Made by a program: the position numbers and the translations under genes | NCBI GenBank assembly: GCA_019637335.1 | Contig: JAHBVV010000004.1 | Span: 1-64,000 of the forward strand | Source: Candidatus Hydrogenedentota bacterium | Lineage (GTDB): Bacteria; Hydrogenedentota; Hydrogenedentia; Hydrogenedentales; JAEUWI01 | Direction: 5' to 3' | DNA: 64,000 nucleotides | Part shown: in pieces, positions 46,715-61,060 of the stretch | Position numbering within the stretch: position 1 is the stretch's first letter | How the letters are laid out: each line of letters begins with the position of its first letter | The notes under the pieces: generated by a model | Told to the model about the DNA's origin: nothing | The model's database searches: none | Seen by the model: the letters and a program-made list of their open reading frames with translations, nothing else

Positions 46715-47210
46715 GCGCCTTTCGGCGCTGAACACAGCCGGGACGGCTGTGCCACTTTCTTTTCGAGGTGATTTTGGTGGGGTCGGGGGATCTCGTAGGG
46801 GTGGGCTCGATTTGCCGCGGACTTGCTGAAGGTCCGCCGTGGCGGAATTGGCCGGGATCCTGTCGCGCCTTTCGGCGCGTTGGACAGCCGGGACGGCTAT
46901 CCTACATTTGCGCCTTTCGGCGCCTGGACAGCCGGGACGGCTATCCTACATTTGCGCCTTCGGCGCCCGGACAGCCGGGACGGCTATCCTACATTTGCGC
47001 CTTTGGCGCCCGGACAGCCGGGACGGCTATCCTACATTTGCGCCTTCGGCGCCTGGACAGCCGGGACGGCTATCCTACATTTGCGCCTTTCGGCGCGTTG
47101 GACAGCCGGGACGGCTATCCTACATTTGCGCCTTCGGCGCCTGGACAGCCGGGACGGCTATCCTACATTTGCGCCTTTCGGCGCGTTGGACAGCCGGAAC
47201 GGGAATCCGG
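46715..47210. repeat. Double-hairpin repeat: one solo copy and an eight-copy array
   Basis: Each unit carries hairpin GCGCC-TTTC-GGCGC (loop TTTC, TTC or TTT) followed by GGACAGCCGGGACGGCT, a second small hairpin, and ATCCTACATTT. Array units start at 46865, 46910, 46954, 46997, 47040, 47083, 47128 and 47171 (43-45 base spacing); the last is decayed. A solo relative lies at 46715-46760. It fills the space between two convergent genes. Further copies are at 60925 and 61009. Confidence 0.93.
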
Positions 47211-53725: not shown

Positions 53726-54355
53726 CTATTTGTCGCCAACCTCAAGAAGATAGATATAGAGCGATAGAGATACCGATGATCGAGAGCAGAAAAGTAGCCA
53801 GAGGAGGTCTAGCACAAGGCTTAGGGCTGTGCCTCCAATAAGTAGAATCAGTGGCACAGCCCAGACTGCCCGGCCATCTACGTCAATCAAACTCACCGGA
53901 TTATTCACCACATACGCATACATATTCGGGCCGTCGACCATGCCGAGGGGGTCTCGGGTGAGCCAGCGGTTGGCGTCGGGGCTGTAGTACCGGTAGGCAG
54001 TATAGTACAGCCGGGCCTCGCTGTCCCAGGCGTGGCCGGTGGATTTTTCCTCCTGCGGCGGATCTTCGACCGGTGATGTCTTCGCCGTGGTCGGCGTATT
54101 TGCCGCCGAAAGGGGTGTATTCGTATTTACCGATGCGGTCGCCATCCTGGTCCCACAGGTCCGCCTGCGGCGGATCTTCGACGGGATGTGCCGCAGGTCC
54201 GCCGTAGGCGGATAGTTCCAAGTCCCCGTGGCCGCGCTGGTCCCTTCGGAGGTGGCCAGGACGGCGCCGATTTGCTTGCCGGGGTATTTCGTCGTGTCGC
54301 CGCCGGTCTTGCGGGTCATGCGCCCGAACTGGCCGTAGGTGTAGGTCGGCTTTTT
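53726..54355 (-). pseudogene. RHS-repeat core domain relic, frame-broken
   Basis: Three blocks of an RHS-associated core are recognisable: YTYGQFGRMTRKTGG..., then DGDRIGKYEYTPFGGKYA in another frame, then LYYTAYRYYSPDANRWLTRDPLG and NMYAYVVNNPVSLIDVDGRA back in the first frame, followed by a hydrophobic tail ending near 53726. At both frame changes lies a short CCGCCGCAGG-type repeat with GTCGAAGATCC. The gene is also cut at its upstream end near 54355, where the repeat region begins. It is a dead fragment of a large polymorphic-toxin or cell-surface protein. Confidence 0.8.
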
Positions 54356-54639
54356 TGGGGTACAGCCTCGCACGTTGCCTGGATGGGGCCGGGGCGCGGT
54401 ATGTGGTTGGAGGCGGGCGCGCGTGCGGGGATTGGGGTTGCGGGTGCGCGGCAGTCCCCCCGGCCGCGCTTCGAGGTTGGCGGCGCGCGGCGCGCGGGTG
54501 TCCCCGGTGGCGCGGGTGTGCCTGATTTGGTGTGCTGCCGCCGCCATTGTTTCCGATGTCCTCCTGCCCAGAGGGATGCGCCGGGGCCGACCCCGACTGC
54601 GGGGTCAGTATAGCCCGGTATGGGTGTTTTGGCAAGGGG

Positions 54640-55790
54640 GTGGTTTTGCCGCTCGTGTGGGGTGGTGTTGGTGGTGTTGGGCTGGTGTTGCTCCTGGCAC
54701 ACGAACGCGCTGGGGCGCGATCGCGTGGCACGGGTTGACGCCCGGGGCCGGGATGGGTGGCGACGGGACTGGCACGGGCAAGCCCTTGCGGGCTTGTCCG
54801 TGGCGCGCCGGGAGGGGCGCTTGGTGTGTGGGGTGTGTGGGTGTGTGGAGCCGCTCGTGTGGGGTGGTGTTGGTGGTGGTGGGCTGGTGTTGCTCCTGGC
54901 ACACGAACGCGTTGGGGCGCGATCGCGTGGCACGGGCAAGCCCTTGCGGGCTTGACCGTGGCACGCCGGGAGGGTGGAGGGCTGGTGTGTGGGGTGTGTG
55001 GGGTGTGTGGGGTGTGTGGAGCCGCTCGTGTGGGGTGGTTTCGCCGCTCGTGTGGGGTGGTGTTGGTGGTGTTGGGCTGGTGTTGCTCCTGGCACACGAA
55101 CGCGCTGGGGCGCGATCGCGTGGCACGGGTTGACGGGCGGGGCTGGGATGGGTGGCGACGGGACTGGCACGGGCAAGCCCTTGCGGGCTTGTCCGTGGCA
55201 CGCCGGGAGGGTGGAAGGCTGGAGTGTGGGGTGTGGGGTGTATGGAGCCGCTCGTGTGGGGTGGTGTTGGTGGTGGTGGGCTGGTGTTGCTCCTGGCACA
55301 CGAACGCGCTGGGGCGCGATCGCGTGGCACGGGTTGACGGGCGGGCTTGTCCGTGGCGCGCCGGGAGGGAGACGTGGGCTGGAGCGTGGGGTGTGTGGGT
55401 GTGTGGAGCCGCTCGTGTGGGGTGGTGTTGGCGGTGGTGGGTGTGCGTTGCTCCTGGCACACGAACGCGCTGGGGCGCGATCGCGTGGCACGGGTTGACG
55501 GGCGGGGCTGGGGTGGGTGGCGACGGGACTGGCACGGGCAAGCCCTTGCGGGCTTGTCCGTGGCGCGCCGGGAGGGAGACGTGGGCTGGAGCGTGGGGTG
55601 TGTGGGTGTGTGGAGCCGCTCGTGTGGGGTGGTGTTGGTGGTGGTGGGCTGGTGTTGCTCCTGGCACACGAACGCGCTGGGGCGCGATCGCGTGGCACGT
55701 AGGTTGACGGGTGGCGGTGGGATTGGCACGGGCAAGCCCTTGTGGGCTTGTCCGTGGCACGCCGGAGGGGGATTGGGGTGTGGAGCGTTT
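54640..55790. repeat. Array of ~200-bp composite repeat units with two hairpins
   Basis: Six copies of CACACGA-A-CGCGC-TGGG-GCGCG-A-TCGCGTG start at 54698, 54900, 55093, 55297, 55458 and 55665. Between most of them lies a second hairpin, CAAGCCC-TTGC-GGGCTTG, and a G/T-rich segment beginning CCGCTCGTGTGGGGTGG. Spacing is 161-207 bases. Long frames on both strands here are translated repeats (His/Pro/Thr- or Gly/Val/Trp-rich) and not genes. 54356-54640 has G-rich DNA with no gene. Confidence 0.9.
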
Positions 55791-55840
55791 GGAACCGCTG
55801 TTGTGAGGTGGTTTCGCCGAGCGTGGGTGGAAGTTTGGTC

Positions 55841-55888
55841 TTGACAGGCGTTGGGGCTCGTGGTATTGTATGGATACAACAATACAAT
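55841..55888 (+). promoter_or_regulatory. Promoter and operator of the GntR-ABC operon
   Basis: TTGACA (55841-55846), 17-base spacer, TATTGT (55864-55869). TTGTAT-GG-ATACAA (55866-55879) overlaps the -10, and a second ATACAAT follows at 55882-55888. Such symmetric sites over the -10 are usual for YtrA-type GntR repressors that control their own operon. Confidence 0.8.
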
Positions 55889-55961
55889 TTAAAGGGCCGG
55901 GTTGGTCCGCGCGAATTGTATTGCGTATATGGAACATCGATACAACCTGGGAGGCTGGACG

Positions 55962-56363
55962 GTGCTGCACTTTAATCTCAGCCAGGGCGAGGGGGTGCCC
56001 CTCTATCTCCAGTTGGTGCAACAGATCAAGCACTTCATCGCGACGGGTCGCCTGACGGCGGAGGATGAGCTTCCGCCGGTTCGGGTGCTGGCGCAGCAAC
56101 TGCTGGTGAATCCGCAGACGGTGGTGCGTGCGTATCGTGAGCTGGAGACGCAGGGCTTGATCTACAAGCGGCGGGGCGCGGGAACGTACGTATCCGCACG
56201 TGGAACGCCGTATACCGATGAGGAATGCCGCCGGATTCTTTCGGATCGCGCGCGGTCATTGCTGGTGGAGGCGCGGAGTCTGGGGTTTGATCTGGAAACA
56301 ACGCTTGATCTGGTACGCGCGTGCAGCGCGGCGCTGGATCGCCTGAAGGAGGGCGCCCAATGA
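55962..56363 (+). CDS. GntR-family regulator, YtrA type
   Basis: A 133-residue regulator: winged helix (VPLYLQLVQQIKHFI, LPPVRVLAQQLLVNPQTVVRAY, GTYVSARG) with only a short two-helix C-terminus, as in the YtrA subfamily that goes with ABC transporters. GTG at 55962 has GGGAGG seven bases upstream. The next gene starts within its stop codon. It should repress the operon by binding the site at 55866-55888 until an effector appears. Confidence 0.9.
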   Translation: MLHFNLSQGEGVPLYLQLVQQIKHFIATGRLTAEDELPPVRVLAQQLLVNPQTVVRAYRELETQGLIYKRRGAGTYVSARGTPYTDEECRRILSDRARSLLVEARSLGFDLETTLDLVRACSAALDRLKEGAQ

Positions 56364-60600: not shown

Positions 60601-60859
60601 GCGGGCAATGTGCCGGGATTGGTCTCGCTGGTGCGGCGGATCCATTGTGGCGCGGCGGCTTCGGAACGACGGGCACACGAATCCGCCTGTGGCGGAATCG
60701 CGTGGCACGGGGCGTGGCCGGACGGGGAAGTTTGTCGCGGGCTGCGGAGCGGGCAATGTGCGGGGATTGGTCTCGCTGGTGCGGCGGATCGATTGTGGCG
60801 CGGCGGCTTCGGGACGACGGGCACACGAATCCGCCTGTGGCGGAATCGCGTGGCACGGG
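60601..60859. repeat. 111-bp direct repeat with a hairpin, two copies
   Basis: Copies at 60601-60711 and 60749-60859 are nearly identical. Each holds CACACGA-A-TCCGCC-TGT-GGCGGA-A-TCGCGTG (from 60674 and 60822), the same outer stem as the array at 54698-55694 but with a different, still perfectly paired, inner stem. Confidence 0.92.
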
Positions 60860-60894: not shown

Positions 60895-61060
60895 GTCGCG
60901 GGCAGGAATGCCCGCGATCCTAGTGCGCCTTTCGGCGCGGTGGACAGCCGGGACGGCTATCCTACATTGGCTGCAGACGGGAATGCCCGCGATCCTAGTG
61001 CGCCTTTCGGCGCGGTGGACAGCCGGGACGGCTATCCTACATTTGCCGCGGGAATGCTCG
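60895..61060. repeat. Double-hairpin repeat, two copies with longer spacer
   Basis: Two copies of the 46865-type unit (GCGCCTTTCGGCGC at 60925 and 61009, then GGACAGCCGGGACGGCT and ATCCTACATT), here inside an 84-base unit that adds GGAATGCCCGCGATCCTAG. Confidence 0.9.

Follow-up and report, generated by a model that had tools for sequence, protein, structure and literature searches.

The 64,000-nt window, which is the whole stretch of Candidatus Hydrogenedentota DNA analyzed here, carries eight copies of a hairpin that we call family A, all of them on the minus strand and, for these window copies, situated in intergenic stretches. The eight copies of the preliminary description are confirmed: six lie at 54.7–55.7 kb and have the inner stem CGCGC/GCGCG, and two lie at 60.67–60.86 kb with the inner stem TCCGCC/GGCGGA. 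The first of the six (54696..54731), which has a GGAGC-type inner flank, and the copies at 55091..55126, 55295..55330, 55456..55491 and 55663..55698 each score 61.5 bits with a covariance model; the copy at 54898..54933 reaches 52.8 bits. The latter had been singled out for a wobble in its inner stem, and the change is present (T·G on the plus strand, A·C on the minus strand), but being one-sided and found in a single copy it is weak evidence alone. Further downstream, the hairpin at 60672..60708 has a CGTCGT-type inner flank and its GTGC tag at the 60708 side, scores 59.4 bits, and folds as minus-strand DNA with −12.6 kcal/mol (z −4.5). A tandem duplication of 148 bp, seen as a 112-nt direct repeat at 60601/60749 (97%), contains its neighbor at 60820..60856 (also 59.4 bits) as the second copy.

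The copies around 55 kb are part of a mosaic array at 54637..55783 (six-copy repeat family D1), whose ~160–207-bp units mostly consist of one family A hairpin and one hairpin of a sibling family, C, with a stem of CACGG, a mismatch and CAAGCCC. Minus-strand pattern matches of family C are found at 54931..54964 (where it overlaps the A copy of 54898 at its GTGGCACGGG end), 55168..55201 (DNA fold z −4.2) and 55727..55760 with 0 mismatches, and at 54773..54806 and 55533..55566 with 1 mismatch each, the last two bearing a GCGC variant of the tag. Long minus-strand ORFs across the array (53901–56099 and 54316–55887) look spurious and seem to come from the G+C-rich repeats. Two other repeats are present in the window: palindromic CCGCCTGCGGCGGATCTTCGAC repeats at 54039–54210, which lie inside an apparent RHS-type coding remnant, and a separate dispersed repeat around GGACAGCCGGGACGGCTATCC without the GTGC tag, which forms 75-bp tandem copies at 60898–61047 as well as a 7-copy array at 46882–47163 and has 151 pattern matches in the genome.

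On the minus strand, all family A copies share the order GTGC, CACGCGA, T, inner stem, T, TCGTGTG, CC, i.e., a GTGC tag that is directly followed by a covarying stem-loop of 12 bp with one mismatch. The lower stem comprises 7 bp including one G·T pair, and a T·T mismatch separates it from the inner stem. This T·T corresponds to the A·A mismatch reported from the plus strand, which is indeed a constant part of the family. The outer stem CACACGA/TCGCGTG is kept as well but is not fully complementary: the plus strand has an A·C mismatch, absent from the preliminary description, where the minus strand has the G·T pair. DNA folds of single hairpins are 4.2–4.8 standard deviations better than those of shuffled sequences, and the 7.16-Mb genome has 122 occurrences of the arms GGCACACGA...TCGCGTGGCAC, compared to 0 for a reversed-pattern control; together, these results exclude chance. 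The strict copies are distributed over both orientations (66 plus, 56 minus), every one of them carries GTGC, and 96% of 97 family A contexts have a pyrimidine in front of the tag. The covariance-model search of genome and relatives that had been proposed as a check returned 147 matches in the same genome, 57, 20 and 29 in three congeners and 17 in another genus of the same family, and 0 family A copies in the other 55 relatives. At L099:4814–4870 (contig C13), a family A hairpin has a loop enlarged by TTCTCCTGCGGCGAATCTTCGACC, which resembles the CCGCCTGCGGCGGATCTTCGAC palindrome.

The window copies represent two amplified blocks, the ~200-bp array and the 148-bp tandem duplication, and thus supply only some two independent cases of inner stems; it is the copies across the genome that give the covariation argument its force. 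When inner sequences were chosen by nothing but their arms, 32 of 38 distinct ones paired perfectly over 5 bp, compared to a mean of 6.0 and a maximum of 17 in 10,000 shuffles, so that the covariation described from the window is real. Inner stems seen with their own complement are CGCGC, GGCGC, TCCGCC, CCGGC, CGGGC, TCGGC, CAGGC, GTGGC and TGCCGCC, and in the series NNGGC-GTT-GCCNN (CC, CG, TC, CA) both basal pairs undergo double changes while the loop stays constant. The wider alignment, on which the idea had been staked beforehand, brought much more covariation: in its 65 distinct rows, both sides are altered in 91 cells, compared to a shuffle mean of 25.4, 99.1% of the cells are paired, and slid controls collapse. 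This preservation of pairing over many different inner stems indicates that the folded form matters. The inner parts also did not turn out to come from unrelated insertions; a CCGCCTGCGGCGGATCTTCGAC palindrome, considered as the origin of the TCCGCC stem, has only 6 copies in the genome and was rejected as a general source of inner stems.

Matched arms could also arise by mutation, with no function needed, if template switching within quasi-palindromes copies one arm onto the other. Such a process, which may help to generate new matched inner stems, agrees with their nearly always perfect pairing and with the presence of hybrid copies with mixed arms (ATCCGCC...GGCGCCA). It should, however, have wiped out two irregularities located a few bases off, the T·T mismatch and the G·T pair, and both are kept in 20/20 of the A1 rows (strict copies) and the G·T pair in 64 of the 65 distinct rows. 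Since it would also leave the association with RAYT genes described below unexplained, we regard template switching as an unlikely explanation of the pairing.

Neighboring hairpins of opposite orientation are arranged as plus, ~154 bp, minus, with their GTGC tags facing outward. At three loci, on contigs C4, C44 and C47, they form alternating arrays, +(154)−(69)+(154)−(69), and many single inverted pairs are found in the congener G001; two inverted REPs that are repeated in arrays are the hallmark of REPINs or BIMEs. The view of the two hairpin versions as drifted copies of one hairpin has to be given up, as stem type goes with flank type: in the window's genome, CGCGC, GGCGC and CAGGC stems have a GGAGC inner flank in 24 of 25 cases, and TCCGC, TCGGC and GTGGC stems have a CGTCGT inner flank in 23 of 24. 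Thus, the two versions mostly represent the two distinct ends of a single type of element, as Y and Z REPs do. The rule has exceptions, as GTGGC is paired with TCCGC in the arrays on C44 and C47. The A-type array on C44 (28648–30132, L087) reaches the contig edge, has the same two hairpin types as the array beside the RAYT gene on C47, and may be the other side of that gene; a short putative toxin-antitoxin-like gene pair is located between its elements. Whole hairpin pairs are missing at two syntenic sites (spacers) in relatives, where the intergenic DNA is too diverged to fix the exact insertion ends and blurs the junction, and element ends were inferred from where conservation stops. The region of G001 orthologous to the window (contig C77) has no family A hairpin in two inspected spacers.

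The preliminary description had proposed selection of the folded form as RNA or as extruded DNA. Selection of the folded form is borne out by the preserved pairing; the RNA part is not. In favor of RNA elements such as terminators, mRNA stabilizers or small RNAs are the stable, covarying fold and the secondary effects that REPs elsewhere can have on mRNA (reviewed in PMC3733652). An Rfam scan of the window, however, gave 0 matches at gathering score, the pair at 60.6 kb has no T tract or terminator match, and inverted pairs and alternating arrays are unlike a single transcribed element. Together with the tight association with a clade of single-strand DNA transposases, this makes selection for an RNA fold very improbable, and the folded form is most likely selected as single-stranded DNA rather than RNA.

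REPs are DNA hairpin substrates of RAYT transposases (TnpA-REP), which are Y1/HuH enzymes. In the window's genome, a family A array of seven hairpins at C47:22002–22714 directly adjoins a RAYT gene at C47:22798–23346, which was missed by a Pfam Y1_Tnp search and recovered by a search with a RAYT-class alignment (306.7 bits). Together with four congeneric RAYTs it forms the alpha clade (support 100/99). A-type REPs lie alongside all five alpha RAYTs, on both sides in three of them and limited by contig ends in the other two; as is typical for RAYT genes, those of the alpha clade are thus flanked by their own REPs. The REPs of two alpha RAYTs have the second lower-stem pair changed from A-T to G-C (CGCGCGA/TCGTGCG), a compensatory replacement that leaves the G·T and T·T positions unchanged. 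Proteins of the RAYT class contain H-x-H and YIHxNPV, the signature of a Y1_Tnp/HuH domain with Y---NP, and six of seven scanned class proteins pass the 80-bit cutoff of the NCBIfam model REP_Tyr_transpos (NF047646) with 80.4–87.1 bits. The alpha RAYT of the window's genome scores 74.4 bits, below this cutoff, and has H-A-H and NPVC in place of HVH and NPVR, which suggests that it may be decaying. The best PDB match of the class is E. coli TnpA-REP (4er8), a weak one (E 0.023).

Two sibling families share the tag of family A and are associated with other RAYTs. Family B (CACCC-T-CAAGC) adjoins beta RAYTs, and family C (CACGG-N-CAAGCCC), which has ~57 pattern matches in the window's genome, is found on both sides of a gamma RAYT on contig C24. 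Since the 55-kb array has family C as its second hairpin, this array is a mosaic of REPs of two RAYTs; BIMEs that are mosaics of REPs belonging to two RAYTs have been reported in Stenotrophomonas (PMC2817692). A hairpin of the family B type (GTGCCACCCTCAAGC...GCTTGTGGGTGCC) also adjoins an IS200-like Y1 gene (L022, C4:122–124 kb). That family A is a transposon-independent palindromic repeat (a MITE, an integron attC-like element or a gyrase/IHF-binding BIME) merely located near RAYT genes is the least probable reading and hardly credible: family A is also found near another Y1 gene (L025, C1:181 kb), and it is retained in G001 (57 copies) and G005 (17), in whose draft assemblies no alpha-clade RAYT was found, but this is outweighed by the A-type REPs at 5/5 alpha RAYTs, the B and C hairpins at beta and gamma RAYTs of the same genomes, and the concentration of GTGC hairpins around RAYTs (within 700 bp) in different phyla.

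By published definitions, the REP tag is GT[AG]G (PMC3686654, PMC6006769), and CGTC is another published repeat tag (PMC3733652). The GTGC tag of family A departs from GT[AG]G, with which it agrees in the first three bases, GTG. An unbiased tally of hairpin tags within 700 bp of 80 related RAYTs (most from Planctomycetota, the others from Hydrogenedentota, Zixibacteria and Armatimonadota) showed GTGC to be the most enriched tag, with 82 hairpins in 33 loci versus 1.4 expected; overlapping and tandem hairpins are counted separately here, and loci are therefore the safer unit. GTGG was second (44 versus 3.2 expected), and GTAG was seen twice. The GTGC/GTGG label needs 9 changes on a tree of 84 RAYTs. 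A search for residues that track the two tags revealed no determinant, the best column reaching only 0.46 bit and being confounded by phylogeny. GTGC is not among the tags in the main texts that we searched for REP definitions, and our literature search found no paper combining Hydrogenedentes and REPs; GTGC in place of GTAG/GTGG is thus a tag variant for which no description was found.

Family A combines a high copy number, both orientations and a palindromic stem-loop after a tag, all of which characterize REPs. Together with the inverted pairs and arrays, the presence or absence between species and the associated RAYT clade, this makes it very likely that the hairpins are GTGC-tagged REP elements, DNA repeats that are not autonomous and that serve, when single-stranded and folded, as the substrate of a RAYT. 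Their closest counterpart is the E. coli REP (Y, Z1, Z2)/TnpA-REP system of REPtron group 2 (PMC8266576, PMC6006769), with which they share a tag at the 5′ foot, a conserved lower stem, a bulge or mismatch and a variable upper stem, and likewise two hairpin types at the two ends, BIME arrays and a RAYT gene adjoining an array. In contrast, E. coli has GTAG instead of GTGC and an AA/GC mismatch instead of a single T·T, and a W/Q/E/H/R set is reported to contact GTAG there, whereas the RAYTs described here, from another phylum, have the motif FW-x-x-G-[GN]-G-Y-D-x-N. GTGG-tagged REPs (Pseudomonas, Stenotrophomonas, O. terrae GTAG-20; PMC2817692, PMC3733652) resemble family A in the GTG start of the tag and in their inverted pairs, and some RAYTs in our tree have GTGG hairpins; the fourth base is G there and C here. 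CGTC-tagged repeats (PMC3733652) and the CnGA-footed hairpins of class 3, which occur in Planctomycetes (PMC6006769), are short tagged palindromes of high copy number too, but both have other tags, the former are without a known transposase (PMC3733652), and the latter go with Y----Q proteins (PMC6006769), whereas the Y---NP of our RAYTs is the class 2 signature. The ends of IS200/IS605 elements (IS608, ISDra2) also combine a single-strand hairpin, a guide tetranucleotide and a HuH/Y1 enzyme; in contrast to these, there is no autonomous element here, and the class proteins have 15.9–27 bits or no match with the IS200 NCBIfam model, short of its cutoff of 55.

For E. coli TnpA-REP, the tag, an unpaired bulge and certain bases of the lower stem are essential, whereas exchanging the upper stem for its complement is tolerated (PMC8266576). 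This rule, in which tag, lower stem and bulge are read and the upper stem is only structural (PMC8266576), would explain the inner-stem covariation of family A. By analogy with the E. coli enzyme, the alpha RAYT would bind the minus-strand hairpin in single-stranded DNA such as that of the lagging strand. It would read the GTGC tag and the CACGCGA/TCGTGTG lower stem and need the unpaired T·T mismatch, and the upper stem would serve as a structural prop only; a mere prop would tolerate any inner stem that still pairs. Once cut, hairpin pairs would be dispersed over the genome through strand transfer close to the tag. Several points speak against the REP reading: the departure of GTGC from the published tag, the loss of cleavage in E. 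coli or S. maltophilia when the last tag base is changed (PMC8266576), the possible decay of the alpha RAYT in the window's genome, the copies in G001 and G005 where no alpha RAYT was found, and the divergence of the empty sites. It is somewhat more likely than not that GTGC serves as the guide tetranucleotide in a large lineage of RAYTs from Hydrogenedentota, Planctomycetota and their neighbors, so that its target and cleavage dinucleotide would not be the CT/CA known from other REPtrons, and that paralogous alpha, beta and gamma RAYTs within one genome stay apart because each reads a lower stem of its own (CACGCGA, CACCC and CACGG, respectively) behind the same tag.

These findings extend REP/RAYT biology to the Hydrogenedentota, for which no description was found. 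The invariant lower stem and mismatch of family A, set against a freely covarying upper stem, represent an evolutionary readout of the rules determined in vitro for E. coli. Moreover, three REP families and three RAYT clades within one genus form a natural orthogonality set, and the changes between GTGG and GTGC at the fourth base on one RAYT tree provide a natural series for whether the tag is the guide that sets the cleavage site, a question left unanswered by mutagenesis of the E. coli and S. maltophilia RAYTs.
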